In this document: one piece after another, positions 8,978 to 13,727 of the stretch
How positions within the stretch are numbered: the first letter of the stretch is position 1
How the letters are laid out: each line of letters begins with the position of its first letter
Assembly (NCBI RefSeq): GCF_014859525.1
Contig: NZ_JACUUB010000014.1
Span: 1 to 50,122, forward strand
DNA: 50,122 bases
Direction: 5' to 3'
DNA from: Marinobacter sp.
Lineage (GTDB): Bacteria > Pseudomonadota > Gammaproteobacteria > Pseudomonadales > Oleiphilaceae
Made by a program: the position numbers and the translations under genes
The notes under the pieces: generated by a model
The model's database searches: none
Told to the model about the DNA's origin: nothing
The model's input: the letters and a program-made list of their open reading frames with translations, nothing else

Positions 8978-9682
8978 TCAAATTTCAATCAAAGGCTTGA
9001 TATTGAGGAACGGAGCCAAGCTCCCGGGTAACCGGTCTGTTGCCGTGGAGTCTATCCAGGGCAACACGCCAAGACACGCCGCACCCAGGTGTGTACTGAG
9101 GTAGTTCAGGGTTTCCTGCTCGCAGTCCATGGATTCGGATTGGGGGTGATTGGCAACCCAACCGGCCAGAAACAGGCCATCGGCGCGAATGGCTTCGGCA
9201 GTGAGCATCGCGTGGTTAATGCAGCCCAGCTTGAGAGGTACCACCAGAATCACATCCAGCCCCAGCTCTCGGGGGACCGCAGAATAGGTTTCCCGATCGT
9301 TCAGGGGGACTCGCCAGCCACCCGCACCCTCAATCAACATTAGGTCCGCCGGGCGAATCTGGAGACCGCGACAAAAGCCGATGAGGCGTTGGGCACTGAG
9401 ACTCTTACCGGCCTGTTGCGCGGCCACATGGGGGGCGATGGCCGGCTCGAAGGCAATCGGGTTAATCGAATCGTAAGCGAGCTCTTCGGTGATAGCAGCC
9501 TGCAGCATCAATGCGTCTTCATTTCGCAGCCCTTCGTCGGTTTTGTCGCAGCCCGAGGCAATCGGTTTCATAGCGATGGTGCGCTTACCCGCGGCTTTTG
9601 CCGCCTCCAGAATCGCCGCAGCGGCAATGGTTTTGCCCACGCCAGTGTCAGTGCCGGTCACGAAAAACGTTTTCTTTGCCAT
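8978..9682 (-). CDS. bioD: Dethiobiotin synthetase
   Basis: BioD closes the ureido ring of dethiobiotin from 7,8-diaminopelargonic acid, CO2 and ATP, the step before BioB. The product has 234 residues from the ATG at 9682 (MAKKTFFVTG). The P-loop GTDTGVGKT (residues 10-18) and the KPIASGCD and IEGAGGWRVPL motifs are all visible. A longer in-frame start at 9718 would overlap bioC by 22 bases and adds residues not found in the family, so I prefer 9682, which has AGGA upstream. It follows bioC by 14 bases and is the last biotin gene of the operon. Confidence 0.95.
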   Translation of the reverse strand: MAKKTFFVTGTDTGVGKTIAAAAILEAAKAAGKRTIAMKPIASGCDKTDEGLRNEDALMLQAAITEELAYDSINPIAFEPAIAPHVAAQQAGKSLSAQRLIGFCRGLQIRPADLMLIEGAGGWRVPLNDRETYSAVPRELGLDVILVVPLKLGCINHAMLTAEAIRADGLFLAGWVANHPQSESMDCEQETLNYLSTHLGAACLGVLPWIDSTATDRLPGSLAPFLNIKPLIEI

Positions 9683-9696
9683 CTCAGTCGTCCTGT

Positions 9697-10524
9697 TCAA
9701 GGTGCAGGCTTGCACCAATACAACCAGCCCGCTTTGTAAGTCGCCAGGTATTGGTGATCACCGCCATGAGGATAGGCCCGGCACATCGCCCGAAAACGGC
9801 CCGGCGCCGTTACCGTCCGACGCCTTTCCTCGCCCTTGAACACCGCTCCCAGATGCTTGAGCTCCCGATTCAGTGCCATTGGCGAGTCATAGGGCAACAC
9901 GATAACGCCCTCCTCAAGCCCTGAACCGGGCAGAGTATCTGCCGTCAGAGCTCGCCAATGTTTGTGTGTGACGAACCGGTTAACATGAGCCTGCCCCGGA
10001 TCGGCCTTTGCCCAAGCCTGCTTGAGCTCCCGCAAGGTGCCATCCAGCAAGGTAGAAACAGCCAAAAAACCACCGGGTTTCATCACTCTCCGGCACTCTG
10101 CAAGAACAACTTCGGGGCGTGGACTCCACTGAATCATCAGGTTACTGAAAATCAGATCAACACTCTGATCCGCCAACGGTAATTGCTCGGCGTCAGCGTT
10201 GAGCCAAGTCACCGCATCTGAGCCTGCGGTTTTAGCCTGAGCCAGCATTCCCGGTGCCAGATCGGCGCCGGTGATCCCAGCATCCGGATACCTTTCCGCA
10301 AGCTTGCGAGTAAACCAGCCTGTACCGCAACCCAGGTCAAGCACAATGCCGTGGTTTAGCTCAGCCGGAATGCGCGCCAACATCGTGTCGCCCATACTTT
10401 TTTGCAAGCGGGATGCGCTGTCGTAAGTACAGGAAGCGCCGCCAAAGCCCCGGGCAATAGACTGCTTGGACCCTGTGCCACCTTCTGCACCATTGATCGC
10501 CATCAGGTCCTCAAACACACTCAT
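9697..10524 (-). CDS. bioC: Malonyl-ACP O-methyltransferase BioC
   Basis: BioC methylates malonyl-ACP so that fatty acid synthase can build the pimeloyl chain of biotin. The 275-residue product has the SAM-binding motif VLDLGCGTGWFTRKLAERYP and downstream class I methyltransferase motifs (LNADAEQLPLADQSVDLIFSN). The N-terminal segment with ARGFGGASCTYDSAS is the usual BioC lead-in. Its ATG overlaps the bioF stop (ATGA), so translation is coupled. In Pseudomonas bioH commonly lies between bioF and bioC. Here that gene is absent, and the enzyme that removes the methyl ester must be encoded elsewhere. Confidence 0.95.
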   Translation of the reverse strand: MSVFEDLMAINGAEGGTGSKQSIARGFGGASCTYDSASRLQKSMGDTMLARIPAELNHGIVLDLGCGTGWFTRKLAERYPDAGITGADLAPGMLAQAKTAGSDAVTWLNADAEQLPLADQSVDLIFSNLMIQWSPRPEVVLAECRRVMKPGGFLAVSTLLDGTLRELKQAWAKADPGQAHVNRFVTHKHWRALTADTLPGSGLEEGVIVLPYDSPMALNRELKHLGAVFKGEERRRTVTAPGRFRAMCRAYPHGGDHQYLATYKAGWLYWCKPAP

Positions 10525-11708
10525 GCCAATGCCACCGGCGGAAACTCTCTACCCGAAAGCAATTCCCGACTTTGCGCCAGAGCCACCAGCAGCTGATCCA
10601 CCTGCTCACAAGTATGGGCAGCGCTCAACGTCACTCTCAATCTTGCTTCACCTGCCGGTACGGTCGGCGGCCGGATCGCGGTCACCAGAATCCCATGCTG
10701 TTCAAGAGCCTGGCTCAGCGCCAGCGCCTCCTGATTGCCACCCACCATGATCGGCTGAATCGGCGACTGGGATGGCATCAGCTCATAGCCAAGCTGCTCG
10801 GCTCCGGCACGAAAACGAGCAATCAACTCACGCAAATGCTCGCGCCGCGACTCCTCGGCCTCAATAAGGTCCAGACTCACACAGGTCGCCGCCGCCAATG
10901 CAGGCGGCATTGCCGTGGTATAAATATAGGTTCGGGCCTTCTGCACCAGATAATCCATCAACACCGCAGGCCCGGCCACAAACGCACCACTGGTACCCAC
11001 CGCCTTACCCAGGGTACCAATCAACACCGGCACGTCGTCTTCCGACAAACCGGCCTCCAGAACACTGCCCCGGCCCTGCGGACCACACACCCCGACACCG
11101 TGGGCATCATCCACCACCAGCAGCGCGTCATGGGCTTTGCAGACCCGAGCCAATGCCTTCAGCGGCGCCACATCGCCATCCATACTGAACACCCCGTCTG
11201 TCACCACCAATTTGTGGCCCGAGGTCTCCGCCAGCATCGACTCTAACGCAGCAACGTCGCCATGGGCGTAACGCCGAACGCGCGCCCGGCTCAGAATGCA
11301 GCCATCAATAATCGAAGCATGATTAAGCCGGTCAGAAAAAATCGTATCCCCACGCCCCGCCAGCGCCGAAATCACACCCATATTGGCCATGTACCCGGTG
11401 GAGAAAAACAACGCCGCACTGCGCCGGGTAAAGTCCGCCAGGCGCTGCTCCAATTGGTGATGGGACTGATGGTGACCACAGACGAGATGCGACGCCGCAC
11501 CGCCAAGCCCGGTTTCCGGCAGGGCATGGGTCAGGGCGTCGATATTGTCTGGGTGATTGGCGAGGCCGAGATAATCATTACTGCAGAACGACAACAGCGG
11601 CTTGCCATCCGCGATCAGCTCCGGCTGCTGGGGGCCGGATACCAGCCGACGGGTCCGGTAGAGGCCGGCCTGTTTCCGTTGTTCAATTTCGTGGGCAAAA
11701 TCGCGCAT
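10521..11708 (-). CDS. bioF: 8-amino-7-oxononanoate synthase
   Basis: BioF is the PLP enzyme that condenses pimeloyl-ACP (or -CoA) with alanine. The 395-residue product carries the family landmarks SNDYLGLANHP, DRLNHASIIDG, VVDDAHGVGVCGPQGRG and IGTLGKAVGTSGAFVAG, the last holding the PLP-binding lysine. I chose the ATG at 11708 (MRDFAHEIEQ). A GTG nine bases upstream is possible, and neither has a strong Shine-Dalgarno, so translation may depend on read-through mRNA from bioB. The gene is separated from bioB by about 180 bases containing a long inverted repeat. Confidence 0.95.
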   Translation of the reverse strand: MRDFAHEIEQRKQAGLYRTRRLVSGPQQPELIADGKPLLSFCSNDYLGLANHPDNIDALTHALPETGLGGAASHLVCGHHQSHHQLEQRLADFTRRSAALFFSTGYMANMGVISALAGRGDTIFSDRLNHASIIDGCILSRARVRRYAHGDVAALESMLAETSGHKLVVTDGVFSMDGDVAPLKALARVCKAHDALLVVDDAHGVGVCGPQGRGSVLEAGLSEDDVPVLIGTLGKAVGTSGAFVAGPAVLMDYLVQKARTYIYTTAMPPALAAATCVSLDLIEAEESRREHLRELIARFRAGAEQLGYELMPSQSPIQPIMVGGNQEALALSQALEQHGILVTAIRPPTVPAGEARLRVTLSAAHTCEQVDQLLVALAQSRELLSGREFPPVALA

Positions 11709-11761
11709 TTGAAACACCGGCTACCCGATCAATGGTACCTGAAAACCCTGCCTGCGTTGGC

Positions 11762-11871
11762 GTGGAGGCCGAGGCGTGCCTTCCAGGACTGTTGAGGGCC
11801 AAGGACGGCCCGAAACAAGCGCACATGGATGTGCTCGTAGCGTGTCCTGGAAGGCACGCCTCGGTCTCCAC
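11762..11871. repeat. 110-bp composite inverted-repeat element between bioB and bioF
   Basis: The two outer 28-base arms (11762-11789 and 11844-11871) are complementary except for one position (11768 against 11865). Each contains the core GGCGTGCCTTCCAGGAC or its complement. Inside lie two more dyads: GGGCC-N6-GGCCC (11796-11811) and GCACAT-GG-ATGTGC (11821-11834). The element begins 17 bases after the bioB stop. As RNA it would fold into a long stem carrying two hairpins. The structure resembles dispersed REP- or MITE-like palindromic repeats, but no second copy occurs in this window, so its family status is inferred. Confidence 0.85.
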
Positions 11872-11888
11872 ATGCACCCTTTACACGA

Positions 11889-12947
11889 TCAGGCTGATTC
11901 TCGAGTGGCGTCATAGAACATATGCTTGGTCGCCTCATACTCGACGGCGTCTGCCAGCACTTCCTCTTCCTGAGCCTCGGTCGCACACTGCTCCCGCTGC
12001 TCAGGCCGAATACCCAGCTTGGCAAACAACTGCATATCCGCATCCGCTTCCGGGTTCGACGTGGTCAGCAGCTTCTCGCCATAGAAAATCGAATTGGCCC
12101 CGGCGAAGAAACACAAAGCCTGCATCTGCTCGTTCATCTGCTCCCGCCCGGCAGACAATCGCACATGAGACGCCGGCATCATAATCCGAGCCACCGCCAG
12201 CGTCCGGATGAAATCAAACGGTTCCAGGTCCTCAACATTCTCAAGTGGCGTACCCTTAACCTTCACCAGCATATTCACCGGCACACTCTCCGGATGCTGC
12301 GGCAGATTGGCCAGCTGCACCAACAGACCCACCCGGTCATCTTCGTCTTCGCCCATGCCCATAATGCCGCCACAGCACACCTTCATACCCGCCTTACGCA
12401 CGTTATCCAGAGTATCCAGACGATCCTGATAGGTGCGTGTGGTGATGATGTGGCTATAATACTTCTCCGAGGTGTCCAGATTGTGGTTGTAGTAATCAAG
12501 CCCGGCGCTTGCCAACTCTTGCGCGTCCTCTTCCTTCAGCATGCCCAGAGTCATACAGGTTTCCATGCCCAGCGACTTCACCTGCTTGACCATGTCCAGC
12601 ACGTACGGCATATCCTTTTTTGAAGGACTGCGCCAGGCAGCGCCCATACAGAACCGCGACGCACCTTTGTCTTTCGCTGCGCGGGCTTCCGCCACCACCT
12701 TCTCAATTTCCAGCAGCTTTTCCTTCTCCAGACCGGTGTTGTAATGGCCGCTCTGAGGGCAATACTTGCAGTCCTCCGGGCAGGCACCGGTCTTGATGGA
12801 CAACAGAGTGCTGACCTGTACTTCATTCGGATCAAAATGCTCACGGTGAATCGTTTGAGCCCGAAACAAAAGATCATTGAAGGGAAGGTTAAACAGATCC
12901 CTGGCTTCCTGAAGTGTCCAGTCGTGACGCAGTGCTGTGGCGGTCAT
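11889..12947 (-). CDS. bioB: Biotin synthase
   Basis: BioB is the radical-SAM enzyme that inserts sulfur into dethiobiotin, the last step of biotin synthesis. The 352-residue product has the radical-SAM cluster motif [13 protein letters not shown] (CxxxCxxC), the RFCMGAAWR segment, YNHNLDTS, and the [10 protein letters not shown] and RLSAGRE motifs that hold ligands of the auxiliary FeS cluster and substrate. The start ATG at 12947 has AGGA about 10 bases upstream. It is the first gene of the biotin operon, with a clear promoter and two BirA-type operators directly upstream in the divergent region shared with comF. Confidence 0.97.
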
Positions 12948-12956
12948 GGCAAAGTC

Positions 12957-12988
12957 CTGTTAACCTTCGCGAGGTTTTTGGTTTACGG
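12957..12988. promoter_or_regulatory. BirA-type biotin operator 1
   Basis: TGTTAACC (12958-12965), a 14-base spacer, and GGTTTACG (12980-12987) match the known BirA operator form TTGTTAACC-N14/15-GGTTAACAA at 14 of the 16 core positions. It lies between the predicted bioB transcription start and the bioB start codon, so BirA-biotinyl-AMP would block early transcription or translation. Confidence 0.85.
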
Positions 12989-12998
12989 ATAAACCGAG

Positions 12999-13026
12999 AT
13001 GATAAACGGACTGAATTCTCTGTCAA
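12999..13026 (-). promoter_or_regulatory. bioB promoter
   Basis: On the minus strand TTGACA (13021-13026) and TATCAT (12999-13004) are separated by 16 bases. The -35 hexamer is part of BirA operator 2, and the -10 hexamer overlaps the comF start codon on the other strand. Confidence 0.75.
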
Positions 13027-13727
13027 CCTTCATTAAACGAAAGGTTAACAGCGCCAACAAAGGCGGTCGCTGCGTGACCTGCCTCTCGCCGCACAGCCTT
13101 CAGGGCCTTTGCCTGGGTTGCCGGGGCGATTTGCCCATCAACCGCTGGCACTGCCACACGTGCGCCCTACCCCTTGCCTTTGCTCTGCCTAACATGCGCT
13201 GCGGCGAATGCCAGACTGCGCCTCCACCCTTTACCAGATCTTTGATCCCCTGGCGCTACCAGTTTCCGGTCGACGGCATGATTCGCCGTTACAAGTACCA
13301 CGGTCATCGCAAGTTTGCGCGGCCACTACTGACCGATTTCAGTGAATTTCTGGCACAGCAACTGCAGCCCGAGGATCGGCCAGATTTACTTATCCCTGCG
13401 CCCATGCATTGGCTGCGAAGATGGCAGCGGGGCTTCAATCAGGCTCAAGACATTGCAGAATTTGTTGGCACCCGGCTGGACATCCCGGTAGCGGCGCACG
13501 CTGTTCGACGAAAGCGTAGAGCGAGCACCCAGCGAGGGCTATCCCGGGCAGGCCGGCTGGCCAATCTGGCCGACGTGTTTCAAGTATGTGAAGCCATGCC
13601 CGAGCGGGTTGCTATTATTGATGACGTGGTCACAACCGGCGCGACGGTTCGGGTGCTCAGCCGCGCACTGGCTGAAGCCGGCGCCCGTGACATTCAGGTA
13701 TGGGCACTTGCCCGAACGCCCGGTTAA
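12999..13727 (+). CDS. comF: ComF/GntX family phosphoribosyltransferase-like protein
   Basis: ComF-family proteins carry an N-terminal zinc ribbon and a type I phosphoribosyltransferase fold. They are linked to DNA uptake in competent bacteria and, as GntX/YhgH, to use of DNA as nutrient. The 242-residue product shows four CxxC-type pairs in the first 70 residues (CVTC, CLGC, CHTC, CGEC) and the PRPP-binding loop VAIIDDVVTTGATV near the end. The start at 12999 is the only reasonable one, because a later GTG would split the first zinc pair. Its Shine-Dalgarno is weak. The first codons coincide with the bioB promoter and BirA operator 2, so biotin control may also affect comF. The stop overlaps that of the convergent FAD oxidoreductase. 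Confidence 0.9.
   Translation: MINGLNSLSTFIKRKVNSANKGGRCVTCLSPHSLQGLCLGCRGDLPINRWHCHTCALPLAFALPNMRCGECQTAPPPFTRSLIPWRYQFPVDGMIRRYKYHGHRKFARPLLTDFSEFLAQQLQPEDRPDLLIPAPMHWLRRWQRGFNQAQDIAEFVGTRLDIPVAAHAVRRKRRASTQRGLSRAGRLANLADVFQVCEAMPERVAIIDDVVTTGATVRVLSRALAEAGARDIQVWALARTPG
13021..13050. promoter_or_regulatory. BirA-type biotin operator 2
   Basis: TGTCAACC (13021-13028), a 14-base spacer and GGTTAACA (13043-13050) give a near-perfect BirA dyad. Its left half contains the complement of the bioB -35 hexamer, and the whole site lies inside the first 18 codons of comF. Two sites with identical 14-base spacers 63 bases apart make chance unlikely. Confidence 0.85.

Follow-up and report, generated by a model that had tools for sequence, protein, structure and literature searches.

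The window, a stretch of 50,122 nucleotides from Marinobacter sp. (contig NZ_JACUUB010000014.1), raises the question of why two BirA-type dyads lie around the start of the biotin synthase gene bioB, one of them inside a divergent comF-like gene, and whether they serve bioB, its neighbour or both. The dyads, termed op1 and op2, are both of the type TGTnAACC-N14-GGTTnACA and start 63 bases apart. The features of the region are listed below, with coordinates in the window.

13021-13050, minus strand: op2, TGTTAACC-N14-GGTTGACA as read on the bioB strand; arms at 13043-13050 and 13021-13028
12958-12987, minus strand: op1, CGTAAACC-N14-GGTTAACA as read on the bioB strand; arms at 12980-12987 and 12958-12965
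12999-13026, minus strand: predicted bioB promoter, with TTGACA at 13026-13021, a 16-base spacer and TATCAT at 13004-12999; 11 of 12 consensus bases
12999-13727, plus strand: comF/gntX-like gene; NCBIfam ranks GntX (143 bits) and ComF (99 bits) highest, each under its cut-off
12987-12989, plus strand: GGA, possible comF ribosome-binding site, 9 nt before the ATG and overlapping the end of op1
11889-12947, minus strand: bioB (biotin synthase), first gene of bioBFCD; TIGR00433 over cut-off
10521-11717, minus strand: bioF; TIGR00858 over cut-off
9697-10524, minus strand: bioC; TIGR02072 over cut-off
8978-9718, minus strand: bioD; TIGR00347 over cut-off

On the bioB strand, op2 (13050-13021) with the -35 is followed by 16 bases, the -10, op1 (12987-12958), an AGGA (12958-12955) and the bioB ATG at 12947. 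The pattern TGTTAACC-N14-GGTTNAC was matched with 0 mismatches at 12958-12986 (plus strand) and at 13022-13050 (minus strand), and each dyad also matched on the opposite strand with 1-2 mismatches; at up to 3 mismatches, 7 matches were counted against a shuffle mean of 2.2. Inverted TGTnAACC/GGTTnACA arms with a short fixed spacer (14 bases here), placed at a promoter for biotin synthesis or transport (here that of bioB, with its -35 in op2), are the marks by which a BirA operator was recognized. The first-pass annotation had reported two such dyads with identical spacers, 63 bases apart, and its description of them stands except that the outer base of op1 facing the promoter, given there as T, is C.

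The bioB promoter was the sole promoter-like site within 12850-13150 (mean of 0.1 in shuffled sequence). As had been noted at first pass, its -35 (13026-13021) forms part of the inner arm of op2 (13021-13028), op2 covers comF codons 8-18, and its -10 (13004-12999) overlaps the comF ATG on the other strand; since comF starts at 12999, its ATGATA is the complement of that -10. Positions 12999-13005, which would serve both the bioB -10 and the comF start, were invariant in 122/122 Marinobacter loci. The earlier placing of op1 in the early transcribed region was right in that op1 lies downstream of the -10, between the predicted start point and the bioB start codon; that it is transcribed would follow from the -10. 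In the bioBFCD cluster (8978-12947) bioF and bioC are not separated by a bioH, and none of the proteins encoded in the genome scored above the BioH cut-off of 207 (best match 66.8 bits, at C150:2421-3143).

The genome has a single BirA-like gene (L001:1048-2013), and its product has the N-terminal winged helix on which the first-pass annotation had staked the idea: HTH_11 scored 45 bits (cut-off 25), together with a ligase domain over cut-off. The protein matched E. coli BirA (1bia) over its full length (E 7.4e-53) and scored above cut-off with the NCBIfam ligase model; the biotin operon repressor model TIGR00122 (59 bits, cut-off 70) and the bifunctional BirA equivalogs (best 317 of 362 bits) were below theirs. 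A second match in the BirA search looks LipB-like.

The genome was also searched for further operators. With TGTNAACC-N14-GGTTNACA at no more than 1 mismatch, 3 sites were found in 3.2 Mb, namely op1, op2 and a stray site at C35:11827. Because about 0.5 such sites are expected by chance (an estimate), one stray is ordinary and two lying 63 bases apart are not. The stray (1 mismatch) was dropped as a chance match; it lies within a long open frame, which we take to be ribonucleotide reductase by recognition rather than by family search. At up to 3 mismatches the genome held 118 sites, against 49 for a reversed control, and these are mostly noise. Dyads with N15 spacers were uninformative (5 sites at up to 2 mismatches, 8 in the control). 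Upstream of bioA the best dyads reached a doubtful 11/14, and upstream of birA none exceeded 9/14.

Conservation was examined in 124 genomes of the genus, of which 123 contained BioB and 122 gave an upstream locus (none came from G075, which had no bioB match, or from G006, where bioB lies at a contig end). Dyads were scored out of 14; a strict pair has both sites at 11 or more, and a lax pair one at 11 and the other at 10. op2 was present in 122/122 loci, at 14/14 in 110 and 13/14 in 12, and op1 (at least 11 of 14) in 113/122, so that the idea survived the proposed check of dyad conservation in relatives. Strict pairs occurred in 113/122 loci and in 0/610 shuffled genus regions, lax pairs in 115/122 loci. 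The comF-like gene was divergent from bioB in all 122. In the 122-row alignment (one row gapped at op2), the op2 arm columns were common to 120-121 rows, the outermost to 110, and the outer arm, upstream of the -35, was as conserved as the inner; the spacer drifts, the base of the window being found in as few as 17 rows. The op1 arm columns were common to 113-122 rows, apart from position 12965 (88), with the nine rows lacking op1 included. The distance between the centres of op1 and op2 was 61-63 across the 113 loci; in the nine without op1, the bioB-comF gap was never the common 49-51. A clade of five loci (L100, L101, L103, L105, L106) has one more TGTTAACC half-site, lying 24 bases past op2; it was not counted as a third dyad, which would reuse an op2 arm. 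A scan of named genomes for the pair gave 77 stretches, 72 of them titled Marinobacter and 5 clostridial; the record of the window itself may be missing from this set.

The gene at 12999 takes its comF-like name solely from its best match and the layout. It fell short of the family cut-offs (304 for GntX, 234 for ComF), and the Pfam domains DZR_2 and Pribosyltran were also below cut-off. Its frame runs uninterrupted through op2 in 121/122 genus loci and in 34/34 family loci outside the genus. No ATG, GTG or TTG occurs within or after op2 before the Cys core in 38 of the 121 and 16 of the 34, which places the comF start upstream of op2. In the one remaining genus locus (L114, from G051, with a listed contamination of 6%) the comF frame misses op2, possibly through a frameshift or assembly error.

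Codon usage was compared in the 121 aligned comF genes, L114 excluded, with a column taken as conserved when at least 90% of rows share one residue. Codons 8, 9, 10, 16 and 17 (CTG TCA ACC and GTT AAC), which lie under the op2 arms, are frozen, each residue being written by one and the same codon in every one of the 120-121 genomes that have it, whereas in the 78 further conserved columns, not counting M, W and the anchored codon 2, the top codon accounts for 24-89%. TCA makes up 21% of the serine codons in these genes. Codon 2 (ATA, 100%) was not counted because the rows were anchored on ATGATAA; its bases are invariant independently in the 122-row alignment. The presence of op2 inside comF is thus conserved at the DNA level, and since the frozen codons lie under its arms, the LST...VN near the ComF N-terminus is in effect a translated operator.

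The account that fits the pair best is that BirA controls bioB from two sites, which would be a variant of a known switch. We hold it likely, with considerable confidence, that both dyads are BirA operators acting mainly on the bioBFCD promoter, op2 being the old site and op1 an addition, and that the overlap with comF is a constraint. According to the excerpted text of PMC4016012, BirA of B. subtilis needs biotin and ATP to bind its operators. In Marinobacter, when biotin is plentiful, a BirA dimer with biotinyl-AMP would sit on op2, over the -35, and keep RNA polymerase out. Some 62 bases from it, immediately downstream of the start point, a second dimer on op1 would add a block to initiation or early elongation; with a start about 7 bases downstream of the -10, op1 would span about +5 to +35. 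The two dimers perhaps bind cooperatively, and contact between them is possible because 61-63 bases from centre to centre make up close to six turns of the helix. The sequences, their conservation, the codon freeze, the BirA domain and the promoter match are observed; binding, repression, the start point, cooperativity and the direction of gain or loss of op1 are the parts of this scheme that we infer from sequence. comF begins on the bioB -10 and reads through op2, and the operator therefore fixes five comF codons; the overlap more plausibly constrains comF than serves to control it.

The history of the two sites was examined in the family and the order. From a family draw of 41 genomes, 6 of the window's genus and G508 (no match) were removed, leaving 34. 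An order sample of 50 genomes, 3 of them without a match, gave 44 loci, with G302 and G457 counted under the family and G154 and the second G129 copy left out; 3 of the 44 loci belong to f35, another family of the order. An op2-type dyad of at least 11 was found in 34/34 other-genus family loci (at least 12 in 33), and no second site of at least 11 was found in these 34, which keep the bioB-comF layout; a score of 11 is reached in 3.2% of shuffled regions and one of 12 in 0.2%. A dyad of at least 12 precedes bioB in 31/44 order loci and is absent in 13. Strict pairs were seen in 0/34 family loci and 0/41 order loci outside f35. Because lax pairs occurred in 2/34 (shuffles 3/680) and 4/41 (shuffles 2/820), respectively, some weak second sites are possible elsewhere. 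A pattern scan of 390 order genomes gave matches in 22, 15 of the window's genus and 7 others; among the 4 non-genus genomes examined, the matches in G309 and G219 lie just before bioB and those in G124 and G318 do not; the other three matches were in G175, G243 and G279.

This distribution marks op2, on sequence comparison, as an old site of the family. op1 is not essential, since it is missing under the strict threshold in 9/122 genus loci and in all 34 of the other genera. A ComF tree of 156 rows, built by a quick method with long-branch warnings among the other genera, requires 3 changes to account for the presence of op1; the Marinobacter loci without it are a starred clade of five near the base, L109, and L120, L124 and L125. 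op1 looks to have arisen close to the base of Marinobacter and to have disappeared about twice; a single gain with two losses fits the tree, which alone cannot separate gain from loss. In eight loci of other families (L193, L201, L209, L211, L215, L219, L242, L243) the far arm of the bioB operator contains an in-frame ATG (ATGGTTnAC), which may be the comF start there, in which case the operator would straddle it. In G503, G513 and G528 (genus code g149) the BioB match contains one in-frame TAG, which may be a normal stop near the end of the match.

Paired sites were also found in other lineages. All 18 f35 genomes of the order draw were scanned upstream of bioB (L204, L214, L218, L333-L347); a strict pair was present in 14/18 and a lax pair in 18/18, against 0/360 strict pairs in shuffles. 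The second sites are weak (10-12 of 14) and the centres lie 49-56.5 apart; with 61-63 in Marinobacter, a fixed helical phasing was rejected as a general rule. By tblastn, comF was beside bioB in 6/18 of these loci and was not found there in the other 12 with the pair. The earlier statement that one operator is usual therefore fits the other families sampled (strict pairs 0/34 and 0/41) and fails for f35. Among the clostridial stretches, tandem dyads precede bioY (PF02632 over cut-off) in 3/3 loci examined of the 5 found; the other two stretches are L319 and L330 (Oribacterium). The TTGACA that ends the first clostridial dyad was imposed by the search pattern.

L269, 7038-7118: tandem dyads before bioY
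L310, 5883-5972: tandem dyads before bioY
L327, 3520-3598: tandem dyads before bioY

From the f35 and clostridial pairs it follows that paired sites exist at biotin genes where comF was not found, and this bears on the view that BirA also controls comF, either from op1 at a comF promoter or with op2 as a roadblock, so that DNA use would follow biotin. The comF and bioB promoters would then face each other like those of E. coli bioA and bioB. Since the GGA is conserved (its three columns agree in 120, 122 and 122 of the 122 rows, its role being presumptive), the comF transcript probably starts within or beyond op1, upstream of 12987, and BirA on op1 could therefore affect comF; an extended -10-like TGTTAACCT lies at 12958-12966, inside op1, and op2 lies within comF in both genus and family. 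Against these points, no comF promoter-like site was recognized in 12850-13150, the best-scoring site shifting between genomes, and the early bioB codons, inspected by eye in 100 of 113 loci, showed no freeze that would mark a comF -35. Moreover, op2 sits at the bioB promoter regardless of comF, op1 is absent (strict) from 34/34 other-genus loci of the same layout, and 12 of the f35 loci carry the pair with no comF found beside bioB. We consider control of comF possible and rather unlikely, and marginally less likely still the fuller version in which the second operator was gained on the leaders of both comF and bioB, so that one switch would shut both and the uptake or use of DNA from the environment would be coupled to biotin sufficiency. 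The proposal of the first-pass annotation, in which BirA hinders comF elongation and so links a DNA-uptake-family gene with biotin status, is thus possible but unsupported.

Much less probable is that the dyads owe their conservation to ribosome-binding sites, to the bioB promoter or to the protein sequence of ComF, and that BirA does not bind them. The ends of op1 do abut the bioB AGGA and the comF GGA, op2 contains the -35, and LST and VN are conserved in ComF; however, the outer op2 arm lies upstream of the -35 and is conserved like the inner, the synonymous freeze affects the five operator codons and none of the 78 other conserved columns, and strict pairs were absent from the shuffled genus regions. 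That a repressor other than BirA uses the dyads seems the most improbable of these readings. It draws on the fact that BirA on these dyads is itself predicted from their letters, and it has against it a genome that encodes a BirA with HTH_11 and a half-site shared with the E. coli bio operator and with a probe bound by S. suis BirA: the MG1655 operator has the half-site TTGTAAACC with a 16-base spacer, and the predicted site in the bioY probe shifted by S. suis BirA begins TTTTGTTAACC (PMC4877710, excerpted text). Two-site BirA control of bioB remains the preferred reading.

On that reading, the locus is a clear example from nature of a probable repressor site lying within the coding sequence of a neighbour, and the codon freeze can be measured over 121 genomes. 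Two-site BirA control is suggested in at least three lineages (Marinobacter, f35 and some Clostridia) and could alter the steepness of the response of biotin genes to biotin, for which the Marinobacter loci with and without op1 provide a ready comparison. If comF were to respond to biotin, vitamin status would be joined to DNA use.

An operator inside comF, or paired operators at bioB, was described in none of the open-licence literature matches listed; Rodionov 2002/RegPrecise may already list pairs. A comF-type gene divergent from a biotin gene is known from the bioH-comFC and bioH-gntX arrangements (PMC5438404), in which the biotin partner is bioH rather than bioB; the excerpted text of that source does not mention an operator in comF. 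The closest likeness is to E. coli bioA/bioBFCD, with which Marinobacter shares the GTAAACC/GGTTTAC half-site, a winged-helix BirA, an operator at the bioB promoter and a divergent neighbour. In E. coli a single dyad, its spacer 16 bases long, lies between bioA and bioB, whereas Marinobacter has two, both with 14-base spacers; its neighbouring gene is comF, whose coding sequence contains one of them. In S. suis the half-site is of the TGTTAACC type, as in Marinobacter, and BirA binds such operators (PMC4877710, excerpted text); the Gram-positive BirA sites of S. suis and B. subtilis are single as given in the excerpts of PMC4877710 and PMC4016012, whereas those of Marinobacter are paired.
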